Shown here in pieces: positions 20,221-58,826 of a DNA stretch of 64,000 bases. The first letter of the stretch is position 1. Each line of letters starts with the position of its first letter. The stretch spans positions 1 through 64,000 of the forward strand of contig JAKFWO010000034.1 of NCBI GenBank assembly GCA_021731815.1, read 5' to 3'. This stretch comes from Hyphomonadaceae bacterium (lineage in GTDB: Bacteria > Pseudomonadota > Alphaproteobacteria > Caulobacterales > Aquidulcibacteraceae). The position numbers were made by a program, and so were the translations under genes. Under the pieces are notes generated by a model. That model was not told the DNA's origin and ran no database searches. It saw only the letters and a list, made by a program, of their open reading frames with translations.

Positions 20221-20233
20221 TGGGCGCGTAGTG

Positions 20234-20662
20234 ATGGGCAATTACGAAGCCAAAACCAAACCTCATGCCGGATCGGTTGAGGAATTCGTGGCACGCGCCG
20301 AGCCGGAGATCCGCCGCGCCGAATCGGCGCAGCTCATCGCGATCCTGCGCCGGGTGACCGGCGAGGACCCCGTGATGTGGGGCCCTTCCATCATCGGTTT
20401 TGGAAAATATTCCTATCGCTACGACAGCGGCCATAGCGGCGCGGCCCCGCGAATCGGATTCTCCCCGCGCAAGGCAAAGCTTGTGGTCTATGTGATGCCA
20501 GGTCTCGAACGGTACAAAGCAGAGCTCGCACGCCTCGGCGCACATTCTACCGGCAAGAGCTGCCTCTACACGACGAGGCTCGCGGCGTGGGATGCGGACG
20601 TGCTGGAGGCCCTGCTCACCCGCGCTTTCGCCGATATGGCGGTGCTCTACCCCGAAGGATGA
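20234..20662 (+). CDS. DUF1801 domain protein
   Basis: A 142-residue cytoplasmic protein of the DUF1801 (YdhG/YjbR-like alpha/beta) family, shown by MWGPSIIGFGKYSYRYDSG and FSPRKAKLVVYVMPG. The function of the family is unknown. The ATG at 20234 is preferred to the adjacent GTG at 20231. It follows the aminopeptidase closely and may be cotranscribed with it. The tandem array attached to the SRP RNA begins 37 bases after its stop. Confidence 0.85.
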   Translation: MGNYEAKTKPHAGSVEEFVARAEPEIRRAESAQLIAILRRVTGEDPVMWGPSIIGFGKYSYRYDSGHSGAAPRIGFSPRKAKLVVYVMPGLERYKAELARLGAHSTGKSCLYTTRLAAWDADVLEALLTRAFADMAVLYPEG

Positions 20663-20698
20663 GGTCCGTTCAGCTCACGACCGGCTGAAATGATGGCA

Positions 20699-20810
20699 GG
20701 TGGAGACTGGTCAGGGTGGAGACTGGTCAGGGTGGAGACTGGTCAGGGTGGAGACTGGTCAGGGTGGAGACTGGTCAGGGTGGAGACTGGTCAGGGTGGA
20801 GACTGGCGAG
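20699..20810. repeat. 16-bp tandem array (7 units) at the 3' end of the SRP RNA gene
   Basis: Seven units of ggtggagactggtcag at 16-bp spacing. Six are identical and the seventh (20795-20810) differs at its end. The seventh unit carries the 3' strand of the closing stem of the SRP RNA (minus strand), and each other unit repeats the ggagactgg core of that strand. The array thus looks like an amplification of the RNA gene's 3' end. Confidence 0.95.
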
Positions 20811-20894
20811 CGACCCGAAGCGGGCTCGTTGCGGCTGCTTCCTTCCGGACCTGACCGGGTTGGCGAGGACTTCGTCCACCGCCAGCCTCCGGGT
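20798..20894 (-). ncRNA. ffs: Small signal recognition particle RNA (4.5S)
   Basis: Minus-strand reading contains the invariant SRP core: ggtcaggtccggaaggaagc with the following agcc, forming the Ffh-binding domain IV hairpin. The closing stem pairs ggaggctggcg (20890-20880) with cgccagtctcc (20808-20798), 11 pairs with one G-U. The length, about 97 bases, is normal for the small bacterial form. The RNA binds Ffh to target nascent membrane proteins. Ends are taken from the stem and are good to a few bases. Confidence 0.93.
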
Positions 20895-20895
20895 C

Positions 20896-22803
20896 CTATA
20901 TCGCGTGCAGAAGGGGATTTGGCAAGGGGCCCGGATTTTCCCCCCGAACCGAAGCGGGCGGTCCGGGGAGCGGCTCCTGCGCCTGGCGGCGCCAGAGCTC
21001 GGCATAAAGCCCATCGCGCGCGATGAGGCTGGCGTGATCGCCCTCCTCCGCCACGCGACCGCCCTCCAGCACCACGATCCTGTCGGCCCCGCGAATGGTC
21101 GACAGCCGATGGGCCACGACAAGTGTGGTGCGCCCGGCGGCGGCGCGTTCGAGGGCGGCCTGCACACTCTGCTCGGTCACCGAATCGAGCGCCGAGGTCG
21201 CTTCGTCGAGCACAAGGATTTTCGGGTCGCGCAGCAAAACGCGTGCGATGCCAAGCCGCTGCCGCTCCCCGCCCGATAATTTCAGTCCCCGTTCGCCGAC
21301 TTTGGTGGCGAATTCATCCGGCAATCTTTCGATGAAATCGAGTAATTGCGCGGCCTTTGCGGCCTCCCGCAACGCTTCGCGTGTGGCATCCGGCCGGCCA
21401 TAAAGCAGATTATATTCAATGGAATCATTGAACAATACGACCTCTTGCGGGACAAGGCCGAGCACCGCCCGCAGGCTCTTTTGCGTGCAGGAAGCAATAT
21501 CGGTCCCGTCGACCAGAATGCGTCCGGCCGAGGGGTCATAAAAACGGAACAATAGCCGTAACAGGGTGGATTTTCCCGATCCCGAAGGGCCGACAATAGC
21601 GGTCATCCGCCCGGCTTCCGCCGTAAAGCTGAGCCCCGACAGCCCGGCCAGCCGCCCGTCATGCGAAAAGCTGACAGCCTCGAACCGCACTTCGCCGGCT
21701 TCGGCCCGCAGCGGAACCGCCCCCGGCGGATCGGCGATTTCGGGGGCCTCGGCGAACAAGGCGTGCAGCTTTTCCATATCGACGGAGGATTGCTTGATCT
21801 CACGCCACGCGAAGCCGAGAATGTTCAGCGGCTGATAGATATTGATCATCACCAGAATGACCGCCGCGATATCGCCCGGCCCCATGCGCCCGGCCGCGGC
21901 CTCGCGCCCGGCCAGCAGCGCCATGGCCAACAATCCGAGGCTGGTGATCAGCGCCTGCACCCCGTTGAGCAAAGCCAGCGATGCCGTCGCCCTGGCCGAG
22001 GCCCGGGCATAGGCACCGAGCGCCTGGTCATAGCGGGCGGCCTCCATATCCTCGGCTGCGAAAGCCTTGACGGTCTCGAAATTGATCAGCCCGTCGGCCG
22101 CGCGTGCTGTGGCTTCCTGATCGTTCTCGTTCATCGCGCGGCGGAATTTCAACCGCCAGTCCGAAAGAACAATGGTCGCGGCCGCATAAAGGGCGATCGC
22201 CGCGGTCGCAATGGCCGAAAACTGCCAGCCATAAGCGAGGGTCAGCGCCGCTGCCGCCAGTGCGAGTTCAAACAGGGTCGGACCGATATTGAAGAAGATG
22301 AAGCGGAGCTGGAAATCGATGGCGCGCGCCCCGCGTTCGATCATCCGCTGCAAGGCACCGAGGCGACGCGTGTGATGAAAGGCCAGCGACAGCGTCTGGA
22401 CATGGGCAAACGCCTCGAATGCCGTGCGGCGCATGGCGGCTTCGGCAACCGGGGCAAAGATCGCATCGCGGAGAAAGGGGGCAACAGCCCCGAGAAAGCG
22501 GGTGAGCACCCACAATCCGGCAAATCCGGCGAAGCCGGCGGCCAAGGTGACCGCGAGCTGATTGGCCCCCGAAGCAGAATTTTCCGACAGGAGATTGATC
22601 CCCGCCGCCAGAGCGAGCGGCGAAAGCACGACAAACACCTTGGCCAACAGGGTCAGGCCGATTGCCGCGACGATCCGCCCCCGGGCCTGGGGGGCCTCGG
22701 CCCGCTGCAAGGCGCGCCACACAAAGCGCATCGAGCGGCCGATATCGGCACCCGCATCGGGATCGCCGGGACCGCTTCGTCTTTCGAGATGTTTCTCCCG
22801 CAT
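20896..22803 (-). CDS. Atm1-type ABC exporter (fused membrane and ATPase domains)
   Basis: Half-transporter of 635 residues. A six-helix exporter domain (about 40-330) is followed by an ATPase with Walker A GPSGSGKST, signature LSGGERQRLGIAR, Walker B ILVLDEATSALD and H-loop VVAHRLSTI. INFETVKAFAAE, LFNDSIEYNLLYGRPDAT and the overall order match bacterial homologues of mitochondrial Atm1 and HMT1, which export glutathione-linked sulfur, iron-sulfur precursors or heavy-metal conjugates as a homodimer. Its 3' end contains the promoter region of the SRP RNA gene. The first 25 residues are poorly conserved, so a slightly later start is possible. Confidence 0.92.
   Translation of the reverse strand: MREKHLERRSGPGDPDAGADIGRSMRFVWRALQRAEAPQARGRIVAAIGLTLLAKVFVVLSPLALAAGINLLSENSASGANQLAVTLAAGFAGFAGLWVLTRFLGAVAPFLRDAIFAPVAEAAMRRTAFEAFAHVQTLSLAFHHTRRLGALQRMIERGARAIDFQLRFIFFNIGPTLFELALAAAALTLAYGWQFSAIATAAIALYAAATIVLSDWRLKFRRAMNENDQEATARAADGLINFETVKAFAAEDMEAARYDQALGAYARASARATASLALLNGVQALITSLGLLAMALLAGREAAAGRMGPGDIAAVILVMINIYQPLNILGFAWREIKQSSVDMEKLHALFAEAPEIADPPGAVPLRAEAGEVRFEAVSFSHDGRLAGLSGLSFTAEAGRMTAIVGPSGSGKSTLLRLLFRFYDPSAGRILVDGTDIASCTQKSLRAVLGLVPQEVVLFNDSIEYNLLYGRPDATREALREAAKAAQLLDFIERLPDEFATKVGERGLKLSGGERQRLGIARVLLRDPKILVLDEATSALDSVTEQSVQAALERAAAGRTTLVVAHRLSTIRGADRIVVLEGGRVAEEGDHASLIARDGLYAELWRRQAQEPLPGPPASVRGENPGPLPNPLLHAI
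20897..20925 (-). promoter_or_regulatory. Putative promoter of the SRP RNA gene
   Basis: On the minus strand TTGCCA (20925-20920) and GATATA (20902-20897) are separated by 17 bases, and the predicted RNA begins a few bases downstream. The -10 match is weak and the -35 match is good. The promoter would lie inside the last codons of the ABC transporter gene, whose TAG is at 20898-20896. Confidence 0.45.
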
Positions 22804-29986: not shown

Positions 29987-30312
29987 TGGTTCGATTCAGA
30001 CATTTGCATCCCGCCTCCCCGAGACGATCGGCAAATGTCTGAATCATCAGAACCACTGGCAAGGTGTTGATTCGAGTGGAGCTGTTGAATTTGACATTTG
30101 AGCAGGCGCTTCGGGTGAGCGGGACTCAAATGTCAAATTCGCTCCACTAATGGTTCGATTCAGACATTTGCATCCCGCCTCCCCGAGACGTTCGGCAAAT
30201 GTCTGAATCATCAGAACCACTGGCAAGGTGTTGATTCGAGTGGAGCTGTTGAATTTGACATTTGTGCAGGCGCTTCGGGTGAGCGGGACTCAAATGTCAA
30301 ATTCGCTCCACC
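29987..30312. repeat. 164-bp tandem duplication of paired imperfect palindromes
   Basis: Two copies (29987-30150 and 30151-30312) differ at a few positions. Each holds two hairpin elements. Element A has arms attcagacatttgc and gcaaatgtctgaat. Element B has arms gaatttgacatttg and caaatgtcaaattc. Both share the core GACATTTG and have 23-26 base spacers. Outer bases extend the pairing (tggttc / gaacca; agtggagc / gctccact). A further B-type element occurs at 41261-41315, so this is a dispersed REP-like repeat. Confidence 0.93.
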
Positions 30313-36463: not shown

Positions 36464-39319
36464 GTGCGGCCGGAATTCGTCCCGCTTGTCATGGTCCGGC
36501 GCTTTTGCGACAAAAGGCGCATGGTTCGCGAATCCGCCGCCCGTTTGACCGCCGTGCTCGGCTCGACCAATACGGGCAAGACGCGGCTCGCCATCGAACG
36601 CATGCTCGGCCATTCCACGGGCACGATCGGCCTGCCGCTGCGGCTGCTGGCACGCGAGGTCTATGACCGGGTGGTCGAGGCCAAAGGCAAGCGCGCCGCC
36701 GCCCTCATCACCGGCGAGGAGCGGATCGCCCCCGACAGCGCCCGCTATTTCGTCTGCACCACCGAGGCCATGCCATTTGCCGCCCGCAAGCAGGAACCGG
36801 GACCGGCTGCGGAGCAAGTGGAATTTCTGGCACTCGACGAAATCCAGCTCGCCCGCGATCCCGATCGCGGCCATATCTTCACTGAGCGCCTGCTGGCGGC
36901 GCGCGGCCGCGCCGAGACCATGTGGCTCGGGTCCGAAAGCATGCGCCCGCTGGTGCGCGCGCTCTTTCCCGGAGCATTGATCGAAAAGCGGGAGCGCTTC
37001 TCGAAACTCTCTTATGCCGGGCCGATGAAACTGACGCGGCTGCCCAAACGCAGCGCCATCGTCGCCTTCTCGGCCGAGGAAGTCTATGCGATCGCCGAAC
37101 TCATCCGCCGCCATCGTGGCGGTGCGGCCGTGGTCATGGGAGCGCTGTCGCCGCGCACCCGCAATGCCCAGATTGCGCTCTATCAGAATGGCGAGGTCGA
37201 TTTCCTGATCGCCACCGACGCGATCGGCATGGGGCTGAACATGGATGTCGACCATGTCGCCTTCGCCAGCCGGGTCAAATTCGACGGCACCCGCCGCCGA
37301 AGGTTGAGCGCAGAGGAAACCGCCCAGATCGCGGGCCGTGCCGGCCGCTTCCGCAATGACGGGACTTTTGGCGAGACCGGGGACTGCCCCGTTTTCGATG
37401 AAGAACTGGTCGCACGCGTCGAATCCCACGAATTCGAACCCGCCGGCCATCTGGAATGGCGCAATCCGGAGCTCGATTTCAACTCGGTCGGGGCGCTGAT
37501 CGCCAGTCTCGACCGGCCCGCGCCGCATGGGCTGTTCCGCCGCACCTCACCCGCCAGCGACGAAATGGCGTTGCGCGCGCTGGCCGAGGACCACGATTTA
37601 TGTGCATATGCCCGCGGGCCCGGCATGACGCGCCGTCTATGGGCAGCCGCTCAATTGCCGGATTTCCGCAAATCGGGGGCCGAGCATCATTTCCGCCTGG
37701 TGCGGGCCATTGCCGGCCCCCTGCTTGTGCCGCCCTTCCGGATTTCCAACGCCTGGGCCATGGCGCAGATCCTGCCGCTCGACCGTATGGAGGGGGAGCT
37801 CGACGCCCTGCAGGCGCGGCTGGCCTTCATCCGGACCTGGGCCTATGTCGCCAATCGGGGCGATTGGGCGGAGGATCCCGAGACCCTGCGCGCCCGCACC
37901 CGCGATATCGAGGACCGCCTGTCGGACGCCCTGCATGAGCGCCTCGCGCAACGCTTTGTCGATCGCCGGACCGCGAGCCTGTTGCGCAGCCTCAAACGCG
38001 AGGACGCCCTTGCTGCGGAAGTGGATGCGGAAGGCGAAGTGCGGGTGGACGGGCATTTCGTGGGCCGCCTGACCGGGCTCACCTTCACGCTCGACCGGGC
38101 GGGACCGGGGCTCGAGGAACGCGCCTTGCGCAATGCTGCCGAGCGCGCCTTGCGCCCCGAGCTTCACCGGCGGCTGGGCGCGATCGCCGAAGCAGGCCAT
38201 GACGATTTCCGGATGACATCCGACGGACGGATCGTTTTTGCTGATGCGGAAATCGCCGCGTTGCGGCCGGGCCGCCCGCCTTTTTCGCCGCGTGTGGATC
38301 TTCGTGGGGCCGATTTTACCACTGGCCCGGCGCGGGAGCGGGCGCAAGCGCGGGTCGAGGCCTTCGTCCTCGCCGAAATCGAGAAACATCTCGCGCCGCT
38401 GCTCGCGCTGAAACGGGCGGTGGAGCCCGGCCCTCAATGCGAAGCGCTGACGGGACTCGCGCGCGGGCTGGCCTATCAGACATTCGCCGCCCATGGATGT
38501 ATCGCGCGCAAGGCGCTGACGATTGAACCCGCCCGGCTCAGCCAGAATGAAAAGCGGGCCTTGCGGGCGCTCGGCCTGCGTTTCGGGGTGGAATTTGTGT
38601 TTCTGCCGGCCTTGTTCCGTCCGGAGAAACTGGCGTTGATTGGTCTGCTGCTCGCGCTTCAGGCCGGAACCCAACCGGCCGGTCAGGTTTCGGGCGGGAG
38701 CGCGCCGCTGTCTTTCCCTGCACCCTCTGGTCGCCACGAAACAGGAACGGCCATGACCGGCCCGGCACCGCCCGGTTTCTGGATCCGCCTTGGATCGCGA
38801 TTGGTGCGGGGGGATGTGTATGAGCGTCTCGTTCGGCTGGTGCGCGACAAGGCGGAAGCGGCCGGCAAAGCGGGATTTGTCGCGGATCCCCATTGGCCGA
38901 GCGTGATCGGCGCGCGGGCGGCCGAGGCGGCGGACATCCTGCGCGGACTCGGTTTTGTACCGGCGAGCCCCCCGAACCCTGCATCACCCCCGCCGCCGGC
39001 ATCCAGCCCGGAAAATGAGCAATCGCCGGCCAACCGGCCAGACGAAAACCGGCCAGACGAAAACCGGCCAGACGAAAACCGGCCAGACGAAAACCGGACG
39101 GCAGAGATCCTGTGGCGGCCCGGCAATTCCCGGAATCAACTGCGCACAACAATACCGCATGAGACAAAATCCGCACCGCCTTCCGCCCCGGCCGGCACGT
39201 CACCCTTTGCGGAATCGCTGGCAGGACTGGCTCCATCCACGATCCAGCCCCGCCGAAGAGGCCGGAATCGGCGCAATGCCGCTTCCGGCAGACGCGCAGC
39301 CGAAAATCCCGCATCCTGA
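36464..39319 (+). CDS. Suv3-like RNA helicase with repeat-bearing tail
   Basis: A 951-residue superfamily 2 helicase similar to mitochondrial SUV3. Walker A is GSTNTGKTRL (about 33-42), motif II LALDEIQLA (near 122), motif III-like WLGSESMRPL, and the C-domain carries AIGMGLNMDVDHVAF and QIAGRAGRF (near 287). A SUV3-type C-terminal domain follows. The last ~130 residues are low-complexity and contain RPDEN repeats from a 15-bp array. The frame opens with GTG 36464; ATGs at 36491 and 36521 are alternatives. It probably works in RNA turnover. The usual follow-on genes (S4-domain protein, ferredoxin) are absent. Confidence 0.87.
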   Translation: MRPEFVPLVMVRRFCDKRRMVRESAARLTAVLGSTNTGKTRLAIERMLGHSTGTIGLPLRLLAREVYDRVVEAKGKRAAALITGEERIAPDSARYFVCTTEAMPFAARKQEPGPAAEQVEFLALDEIQLARDPDRGHIFTERLLAARGRAETMWLGSESMRPLVRALFPGALIEKRERFSKLSYAGPMKLTRLPKRSAIVAFSAEEVYAIAELIRRHRGGAAVVMGALSPRTRNAQIALYQNGEVDFLIATDAIGMGLNMDVDHVAFASRVKFDGTRRRRLSAEETAQIAGRAGRFRNDGTFGETGDCPVFDEELVARVESHEFEPAGHLEWRNPELDFNSVGALIASLDRPAPHGLFRRTSPASDEMALRALAEDHDLCAYARGPGMTRRLWAAAQLPDFRKSGAEHHFRLVRAIAGPLLVPPFRISNAWAMAQILPLDRMEGELDALQARLAFIRTWAYVANRGDWAEDPETLRARTRDIEDRLSDALHERLAQRFVDRRTASLLRSLKREDALAAEVDAEGEVRVDGHFVGRLTGLTFTLDRAGPGLEERALRNAAERALRPELHRRLGAIAEAGHDDFRMTSDGRIVFADAEIAALRPGRPPFSPRVDLRGADFTTGPARERAQARVEAFVLAEIEKHLAPLLALKRAVEPGPQCEALTGLARGLAYQTFAAHGCIARKALTIEPARLSQNEKRALRALGLRFGVEFVFLPALFRPEKLALIGLLLALQAGTQPAGQVSGGSAPLSFPAPSGRHETGTAMTGPAPPGFWIRLGSRLVRGDVYERLVRLVRDKAEAAGKAGFVADPHWPSVIGARAAEAADILRGLGFVPASPPNPASPPPPASSPENEQSPANRPDENRPDENRPDENRPDENRTAEILWRPGNSRNQLRTTIPHETKSAPPSAPAGTSPFAESLAGLAPSTIQPRRRGRNRRNAASGRRAAENPAS
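39033..39092. repeat. 15-bp tandem array (4 units) in the helicase gene
   Basis: Four identical units accggccagacgaaa, encoding RPDEN-type pentapeptide repeats in the C-terminal tail. The unit length keeps the frame. Confidence 0.95.
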
Positions 39320-56144: not shown

Positions 56145-58826
56145 TCATTTCTCCCGCAGGATTGCCGCCTGAGCGGCAGCCAATCTCGCAATCGGGACCC
56201 GGAAGGGCGAACAGCTCACATAATCGAGCCCGATTTCCTCGCAAAAACTGATGGTTGCCGGGTCGCCGCCATGTTCGCCGCAAATGCCGGTCTTGAGGAC
56301 GGGGCGCGCGGCCTTGCCGCGTTCGAGCGCGATGCGCATGAGATCGCCAACGCCGTCCTGATCGAGCGTCTGGAACGGGTCCTTGTCGTAAATACCGAGA
56401 TCGGCATAGATTTTGAGGAAGCGGGCATCGTCACGCGACATGCCCAGCGTCGTCTGGGTCAGATCATTGGTTCCAAAACTGAAGAACTCTGCGGCCAGCG
56501 CGATATCGCCGGCGCGCAGGGCCGCGCGCGGCAATTCGATCATGGTCCCGACGCTGAAGGGGATTTCCTGACCGGTCGCAACACGGCATTCATCGGCGAC
56601 CCGCGATACATTGGCCTTGAGAATGTCGAGTTCCTTTTTCGCGCTGACCAGCGGGATCATGATCTCGACATTGGGCATGAATCCCGTGCGGGCGGCGACG
56701 GCACCGGCGGCCTCGAAAATCGCGCGCGCCTGCATGTCGTAGATCTCGGGGAATGTGATCCCGAGCCGGCAGCCGCGATGACCCAGCATCGGGTTGGATT
56801 CATGCAATTCCCCCGCGCGCGCCATGAGCGCCGATGCCGGCAGGCCGGTCGCCTCGGCCACTGCGGCGATGTCCTTTTCGCCATGGGGCAGAAATTCATG
56901 CAAGGGCGGGTCGAGCAGCCGGATGGTTACCGGACGCGTGCCCATGATTTCGAACAGGGCCTCGAAATCCCCGCGCTGGACCGGCAGCAGCTTCGCGAGC
57001 GCCTTGTTGCGGTCGGCGAGGCTGTCGGCGAGGATCATTTCCCGCACAAAGGCCACGCGTTCATGGTCGAAAAACATGTGCTCCGTGCGGCACAGCCCGA
57101 TACCCTCGGCACCGAAATCGCGCGCCATGCGTGCATCGGCCGGGGTTTCGGCATTGGCGCGTACGCGCAGGCGGCGACGCTCATCCGCCCAGCCCATCAG
57201 CGCACCAAATGGGCCCGATAATTCCGGCTGCACCAGTTGAGCCGCGCCCGCCAGCACCTGGCCGGTCGATCCATCGACACTGATGATCTCGCCCTTGCGC
57301 ACCACGCGCCCGCCAATGGAGAACTGGCCGGCGGCCTCATCGATCCGCAGCCCGCTGGCCCCGCACACACAGGCCCTGCCCATGCCGCGCGCCACCACTG
57401 CGGCGTGGCTGGTCATGCCGCCCCGCGCCGTGACGATCGCCCGCGCCGCATGCATGCCATGGATGTCCTCGGGCGCCGTGTCGACGCGCACCAGAATGAC
57501 GGCCTTCCCGTCGGCAGCGAGGGTGGCGGCCTCATCGGGGTCGAACACCACTTCGCCGACGGCAGCGCCCGGCGAGGCGGGCAGCCCGATCGCCAGCACA
57601 TCGCGTTTGTAATTGGGCGAAATGGTCGGGTGAAGCATCTGGTCGAGCGCTTTGGCGTCGATGCGCAGAATGGCTTCGTCCCTGGTGATCAGACCCTCGC
57701 CGACCATGTCGACCGCAATACGCAAGGCGGCCGGCGTGGTCCGCTTGCCGTTACGGGTCTGGAGCATGAAGAGGGTTCCCTCCTCGATCGTGAACTCGAT
57801 ATCCTGCATGTCGCGATAATGGCGCTCGAGGCGCGCGGCGATCGCCGACAATTCAGCGAAAGCGACGGGCATCGCCTCTTCCATCGAGGGCTCCCGCCCG
57901 CCCAATTGGGCACGCGCGGCGCGCGAGATGGCATTGGGCGTGCGCAGGCCGGCAACGACATCCTCACCCTGGGCATTGATGAGGAATTCCCCGTAAATGG
58001 CGTTCTCACCGGTCGAGGGATTGCGCGTGAAGGCGACGCCGGTCGCAGATTTCAGCCCCATATTGCCGAACACCATGGCCTGGACCGTAACCGCCGTGCC
58101 CCAGCTTTCGGGAATATCGTGGAGCTTGCGATAGAAGATCGCGCGGTCATTCATCCAGGAGCGGAACACGGCCTCGATCGCGCCCCATAATTGGGTACGG
58201 GGATCCTGGGGGAAAGGCTGTCCGGTGCGGCGCAGCACGATATCCTGGAATTGCGCAACGATTTCAGTCCAATCCTCGTGTCCGAGATCGAGGTCATTGC
58301 GAAAATCGCGCTCGTCCTTGTAGACCTCCAGCGCGTGCTCAAAGGCATCATGCGAGACCCCCAACACGACATGGGAATACATCTGGATGAAGCGGCGATA
58401 GGAATCCCAAGCAAATCGCCGGTCGCCCGAACGCGCCGCCAGCCCCTCGACGCTCGCATCGCCGAGGCCGAGATTGAGCACCGTATCCATCATGCCGGGC
58501 ATGGAGGCCCTGGCACCCGAGCGCACGGAGACGAGCAGCGGATTGGAAGGGTCGCCAAATCGCTTTCCGGTCAGGGTCTCAAGTGCCTCCAGCGCCTTTC
58601 CGGCTTCCTCGGACAGGCCTTCGGGCATACGGCGCCCGGCCGCATAATAGTGATTGCAGGTTTCGGTGGTGATCGTGAAGCCTGGCGGCACCGGCAGGCC
58701 GAGCAGCGACATCTCGGCGAGATTGGCCCCCTTGCCGCCGAGAAGATTGCGCAGGCCCGAGGCGCCATCGGCCCGGCCACCGCCGAAGGAATAGGTTCTT
58801 TGCCGTTCGGCAATCATTTCGGACAT
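56145..58826 (-). CDS. ppdK: Pyruvate, phosphate dikinase
   Basis: An 893-residue enzyme interconverting pyruvate, ATP and Pi with PEP, AMP and PPi. The ATP-grasp domain starts LLGGKGANLAEMSLLGLPVPPGF, the swivelling phospho-histidine lies in ARGGMTSHAAVVARGMGRACV (near 474), and the C-terminal PEP-binding barrel carries the active cysteine in TGICGEHGGDP. ATG 58826 is supported by AGGA. The leader contains a 14-bp duplication (58971-58998, cgcacaggggcagg). It can supply PEP for gluconeogenesis from pyruvate released by the dgo operon next door. Confidence 0.96.
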   Translation of the reverse strand: MSEMIAERQRTYSFGGGRADGASGLRNLLGGKGANLAEMSLLGLPVPPGFTITTETCNHYYAAGRRMPEGLSEEAGKALEALETLTGKRFGDPSNPLLVSVRSGARASMPGMMDTVLNLGLGDASVEGLAARSGDRRFAWDSYRRFIQMYSHVVLGVSHDAFEHALEVYKDERDFRNDLDLGHEDWTEIVAQFQDIVLRRTGQPFPQDPRTQLWGAIEAVFRSWMNDRAIFYRKLHDIPESWGTAVTVQAMVFGNMGLKSATGVAFTRNPSTGENAIYGEFLINAQGEDVVAGLRTPNAISRAARAQLGGREPSMEEAMPVAFAELSAIAARLERHYRDMQDIEFTIEEGTLFMLQTRNGKRTTPAALRIAVDMVGEGLITRDEAILRIDAKALDQMLHPTISPNYKRDVLAIGLPASPGAAVGEVVFDPDEAATLAADGKAVILVRVDTAPEDIHGMHAARAIVTARGGMTSHAAVVARGMGRACVCGASGLRIDEAAGQFSIGGRVVRKGEIISVDGSTGQVLAGAAQLVQPELSGPFGALMGWADERRRLRVRANAETPADARMARDFGAEGIGLCRTEHMFFDHERVAFVREMILADSLADRNKALAKLLPVQRGDFEALFEIMGTRPVTIRLLDPPLHEFLPHGEKDIAAVAEATGLPASALMARAGELHESNPMLGHRGCRLGITFPEIYDMQARAIFEAAGAVAARTGFMPNVEIMIPLVSAKKELDILKANVSRVADECRVATGQEIPFSVGTMIELPRAALRAGDIALAAEFFSFGTNDLTQTTLGMSRDDARFLKIYADLGIYDKDPFQTLDQDGVGDLMRIALERGKAARPVLKTGICGEHGGDPATISFCEEIGLDYVSCSPFRVPIARLAAAQAAILREK

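Follow-up and report, generated by a model that had tools for sequence, protein, structure and literature searches.

The single SRP RNA gene of this Hyphomonadaceae bacterium runs at its 3' end into a perfect tandem array, in which the 12-nt core CCAGTCTCCACC occurs seven times and the first copy is the 3' strand of the RNA's own closing stem. Probably the array is a recent, lineage-specific minisatellite that was seeded at the 3' end of the RNA gene and is tolerated as a trailer. The window, by which we mean the whole 64,000-nucleotide stretch of DNA that was analysed, contains the following features at this locus:

20231..20662, plus strand: gene for a DUF1801 protein, convergent to the SRP RNA, its end lying 36 nt away from the array's far edge.
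20692..20769, minus strand: best 78-nt rut-like stretch, with a C/G ratio of 4.44 and seven C at a spacing of 11-13 nt.
20699..20794, minus strand: six further units of 16 nt each (CTGA + CCAGTCTCCACC) without any difference between them, 96 nt in total (from TRF and the sequence).
20795..20806, minus strand: copy 1 of CCAGTCTCCACC, at once the native 3' strand of the closing stem and the first unit of the array (overlap of the RF00169 and TRF calls).
About 20892-20795, minus strand: SRP RNA gene of the bacterial small (4.5S-type) class, with the RF00169 match at 20888-20797 (cmscan and conserved stem strands).
20882..20890, minus strand: 5' strand of the closing stem, GGAGGCTGG, the partner of CCAGTCTCC in all copies (sequence and folding).
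20895..20926, minus strand: conserved SRP promoter, with CTTGC near -35 and GCGATAT near -10, found ahead of the SRP gene in many relatives too.
20896..22803, minus strand: ABC exporter gene (ABC_membrane + ABC_tran), upstream of the SRP RNA.

The RF00169 covariance model matched the SRP RNA gene over its full length (model positions 1-97) with 58.6 bits against a gathering score of 40, and the gene is present once in the 2.53-Mb, 48-contig assembly, which is estimated to be 99.8% complete. The conserved stem strands suggest that the RNA extends from about 20892 to 20795; its closing stem of 11 bp pairs the 5' strand GGAGGCUGGCG with the 3' strand CGCCAGUCUCC. SRP RNA is an essential molecule that is normally compact and conserved. 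The conserved promoter was missed by a scan for the sigma-70 consensus, and the ABC exporter gene has its stop codon within it, overlapping the -10 region. None of the genes next to the SRP RNA recurs at the SRP locus in the stretches of relatives that were compared, many of which carry a dnaX-like gene (LARKYRP motif) directly behind the SRP RNA, and a search for the ABC transporter in the named genomes returned distant homologues only, with at most 51% identity.

TRF delimited the array to 20699-20806, a length of 108 bp with a period of 16 and about 6.8 copies at 100% match, and found no mismatch. Read on the RNA strand it consists of seven copies of CCAGTCTCCACC joined by six identical CTGA spacers (7x12 + 6x4 = 108 bp), and it overlaps the RF00169 match at the 3' end of the RNA. 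The initial annotation had described seven 16-bp units following the SRP RNA; the seven copies are there, but one of them is the RNA's own and six follow it. Its identification of the first unit with the 3' strand of the closing stem is borne out by the overlap of the RF00169 and TRF calls and by the single copy found in relatives, and the pairing core that it saw repeated in every unit was found in each, CCAGUCUCC pairing with the 5' strand GGAGGCUGG of the RNA through eight Watson-Crick pairs and one G-U. The flanking CG that lengthens the native helix to 11 bp is present at copy 1 only. Allowing for up to two mismatches, a search for the unit elsewhere in the genome returned nothing but one isolated site. 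Identical 16-bp units that lie head to tail (16 bp x 6.75) fit what is understood by a minisatellite, with its several copies of a unit of about 10-100 bp. A CRISPR array was ruled out, the units measuring 16 bp (against repeats of about 23-50 bp) and all six spacers being CTGA instead of unique sequences. A protein-coding reading was likewise rejected because the period of 16 is not divisible by three; the local open reading frames run antisense over the SRP and ABC genes.

The epidemiology of the array was addressed across 150 alphaproteobacterial SRP loci, to which the added loci contribute mostly one per genus, by scanning the 300 bases behind the SRP core. In this region the longest exact direct self-overlap reaches 92 nt here; the 149 other loci have a median of 7 and none exceeds 16, and an array was present at just this one locus of the 150. 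In 60 relatives drawn from its family and order the SRP 3' end carries the closing-stem strand once, followed by unrelated DNA, and a pattern for a repeated CNGTCTSCAC-type end, run over 398 genomes of the order, matched beside the SRP gene in this genome only. The matches from a plasmid search were all partial, to SRP-like DNA of other genera, and in no case covered 80% of the query. Since it is absent from the SRP loci of the relatives compared, the array is lineage-specific. That it grew out of the 3' end of the SRP RNA, as had been proposed from the window itself, is supported at the level of sequence by the presence of the 12-nt core as a single copy in the SRP genes of relatives, where the array is absent.

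The SRP locus has parallels at other RNA genes of the same genome. We surveyed 150 nt on each side of 41 structural RNA genes, namely 38 tRNAs, RNase P RNA, tmRNA (alpha-type; RF01849, 219.7 bits) and SRP RNA, and obtained 12 repeat calls on the 3' side, three of which are alternative periods of one tRNA-Leu array, against three on the 5' side. No array overlapped an RNA 5' end among the 41 genes. Two tRNA genes carry long arrays at their 3' ends:

Contig C13, 65204-65310 (L313 1573-1679): tRNA-Trp array of GCCAGTTTTCCCATGG, 16 bp x 6.7.
Contig C17 (L345), directly behind tRNA-Leu 56728-56809: tRNA-Leu(UAG) array.

At tRNA-Trp the 16-bp unit starts with GCCA, the discriminator and CCA end of the tRNA, followed by 12 further nt, and is present in 6.7 exact copies or about 7.6 when imperfect ones are counted. 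The tRNA-Leu(UAG) array repeats the final 8 nt of the gene, CCGCACCA, about nine times, the spacers being ATTGG, GTTTTGG or GCCGG, and the combination CCGCACCA + ATTGG forms a unit of 13 bp x 8.5. The array units thus start with the RNA's own last 12 (SRP), 8 (tRNA-Leu) or 4 nt (tRNA-Trp). No such array was found behind tRNA-Trp in 29 loci of relatives, nor any 3'-side array at 42 tRNAs of relatives; the pattern made for tRNA-Leu(UAG) was too strict for use in relatives and matched its own genome only. Behind tRNA-Pro(CGG) there are two short arrays of 11 bp x 2.6 and 16 bp x 2.4, from which the tRNA end is excluded (L333 1587-1673). If the approximately 12 intergenic arrays of at least six copies were seeded uniformly, about 0.05 overlaps with the last 15 nt of one of the 41 RNA genes would be expected, compared to the three seen, although this estimate is rough and was made after the fact. 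The excess at RNA 3' ends may reflect tolerance, transcription-linked instability, or something more specific.

Tandem repeats of this kind are abundant in the genome as a whole. A scan for exact tandem copies with periods of 10-40 in an 864-kb sample identified 96 arrays of at least two copies (11 per 100 kb), 27 of which have at least three, while ten relatives of the family and order had five arrays (period at least 10) in 400 kb (1.3 per 100 kb) and none with at least three copies. This amounts to an approximately ninefold excess of exact 10-40-bp tandem repeats; by TRF the density is 12 arrays per 100 kb here compared to three in relatives. Periods of 12-17 dominate, and each array locus has its own unit. 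Coding arrays prefer periods of 12 and 15 whereas intergenic ones use 13, 14 and 16 as well, as expected from a filtering of duplications by the reading frame. Arrays are also enriched at the ends of protein genes, with 14 at 3' ends against 3.9 expected and eight at 5' ends against 4.5. The gene calls behind these figures are rough, and part of the enrichment stems from the relaxed constraint on intergenic DNA. Although array units contain GGCC and CCGG at about twice the expected frequency, one shared motif behind all arrays was rejected, the SRP unit containing neither. The repeats cannot be put down to a missing MutS, as a full-length mutS is located on the window's own contig.

The SRP array can be understood as part of this genome-wide burst of 12-17-bp tandem duplications, which would accumulate outside genes. 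Strand slippage, or repair that creates a short duplication, would have duplicated the terminal 12 nt of the SRP RNA gene together with a 4-nt spacer, and the resulting 16-bp unit would then have expanded to seven perfect copies, presumably recently. Growth of the array would be directed away from the SRP gene, so that the SRP hairpin is still closed by copy 1 and the integrity of the essential RNA is preserved, which is why the extra copies could be tolerated and may be nearly neutral. They would form a 3' trailer that is removed by ordinary 3' processing. The mature SRP RNA is expected to be normal, as an uninterrupted helix with the two additional C-G pairs is available to copy 1 only. One detail stands against this minisatellite scenario, in that the remainder left by one tandem duplication of little microhomology would be shorter than that of the array; as the array is composed of six units plus the whole 12-nt core, the first step must have needed a 12-nt match across 4 nt, or else there was a later deletion at the edge. 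In addition, three long arrays at the 3' ends of 41 RNA genes exceed what uniform intergenic seeding would give, so tolerance alone may not suffice.

The remarkable composition of the array raises the question of whether it does something for transcription. It could be a Rho-loading site which ends SRP transcription before the convergent DUF1801 gene, perhaps one that originated by chance and was then kept; judged from sequence, we consider this unlikely but worth attention. A rut site has been described as about 78 nt of C-rich, G-poor RNA with a C every 11-13 nt (PMC6407284). The C/G ratio of the best stretch here is equalled by only one of 184,883 other stretches of the genome, the excess of C over G across 108 nt at the array is above that of all 131,822 others, and the genome encodes Rho. 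An intrinsic terminator, i.e., a stem-loop directly followed by a U tract, was found neither at the SRP end nor just past the array; the bases that first follow the closing stem contain no TT, and the convergent gene lies 36 nt past the array. A pause site would be expected within 150 nt downstream of a rut site, and the DNA past the array folds into hairpins that may or may not provide one. However, the C-richness may be a by-product, since it arises automatically when a strand whose pairing partner is rich in G is repeated, and relatives do without such a stretch, their mean of C minus G being near 0. Nor is Rho loading a purpose common to the arrays, as the one at tRNA-Trp lacks this C-rich, G-poor composition. 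Even so, given how exceptionally C-rich and G-poor the extra RNA is, a gained Rho-loading site would be the most testable functional consequence of the array. The initial annotation had proposed another effect, that read-through transcripts could use the later copies as alternative closing stems and that this might alter how the 3' end of the SRP RNA is processed or how stable the RNA is. Every copy is able to pair with GGAGGCUGG, and in ViennaRNA the predicted probability of the native closing stem falls from 1.00 without extra units to 0.02 with six; in addition, CCUGACC from the spacer region of the unit is exactly complementary to the conserved GGUCAGG of the SRP core and is used in several of the predicted alternatives. 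Such stems are thus possible and nearly isoenergetic, but the energy gaps of 1-5 kcal/mol between them fall within model error, and equal disruption was produced by 52 of 200 shuffled tails and by 15 of 200 arrays of shuffled units. These probabilities moreover ignore co-transcriptional folding, which would favor copy 1, as the native hairpin is transcribed first and has two extra pairs there. The shuffled tails and co-transcriptional folding together mean that an effect on processing or stability is not distinctive of the array, and a disturbance of an essential RNA should be selected against; on this modeling we hold the proposed effect to be improbable.

The coincidence of three RNA genes with long arrays whose units open with the RNA's own terminal bases could also point to a directed process, e.g., RNA-templated or 3'-end-linked duplication, which adds copies of stable-RNA 3' ends in place of random slippage, and the restriction of the overlaps to 3' ends fits with it. 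But many similar arrays lie in protein genes and in intergenic DNA with no RNA end, so slippage explains them without new machinery, and three RNA-end arrays are a small count that was noticed post hoc; we regard a directed process as very improbable indeed. We would give only a slim chance to the broader proposal that in this lineage the SRP, tRNA-Trp and tRNA-Leu 3' ends are preferred sites whose terminal bases are multiplied in tandem, the process behind this being linked to RNA 3' ends or to transcription, and that the copies act on the RNA as decoy 3' ends or in Rho loading and are not random minisatellites.

By analogy, the nearest precedents of the SRP array would be the tyrT repeats of E. 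coli and the STRR sequences of cyanobacteria, the SRP case resembling tyrT with a much smaller unit. The tyrT repeats, which give rise to rtT RNA (RF00391), are units of about 178 bp containing 19 nt of tRNA-Tyr, in about three copies. In both systems tandem repeats lie directly downstream of a stable RNA gene and the unit holds the 3' terminal bases of the RNA, CCAGTCTCCACC being the conserved 3' strand of SRP RNA; the SRP array differs in its 16-bp units, its 12 nt of SRP RNA and its seven copies, and is not a member of that family, as RF00391 had no match in the 64-kb window. STRR sequences are heptanucleotide families common to several cyanobacterial loci. They were reportedly described in RNase P RNA genes by Vioque in 1997. 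They too are genome-wide short tandem repeats that landed in a structural RNA gene, but they reportedly lie within the RNA gene, whereas the SRP array extends outward and each locus here has its own unit. With bacterial minisatellites and VNTRs the array shares perfect, short head-to-tail units, an intergenic position and restriction to a lineage, and what sets it apart is that its seeding point coincides with the end of a structural RNA that is essential. The genomes of Beggiatoaceae are also rich in short intergenic direct repeats (abundant TAACTGA; PMC4679880), but a single 7-nt unit is shared there, whereas here every locus has a 12-17-nt unit of its own. In the open-access literature we found no papers on tandem copies of SRP RNA ends, and none on the tyrT repeats. 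The tails of SRP RNA, tRNA-Trp and tRNA-Leu constitute a natural test of how stable-RNA 3' ends are formed and of how far extra sequence is tolerated, while a genome with strongly raised 12-17-bp tandem duplication and an intact mutS should be useful for finding the responsible difference in repair or replication.

Some individual repeats warrant mention. The longest array in the 864-kb sample consists of 10 perfect copies of the 14-bp unit CCTGATTCCACGGC (L351 4144-4283) and is located just upstream of a gene resembling that for serine hydroxymethyltransferase (glyA). The window itself also carries a 14 bp x 6 array between divergent genes (1422-1505), a perfect in-frame array of 15 bp x 4.4 within an open reading frame (39032-39097), and a near-perfect tandem duplication of 164 bp in two copies with 98% identity (29987-30311).
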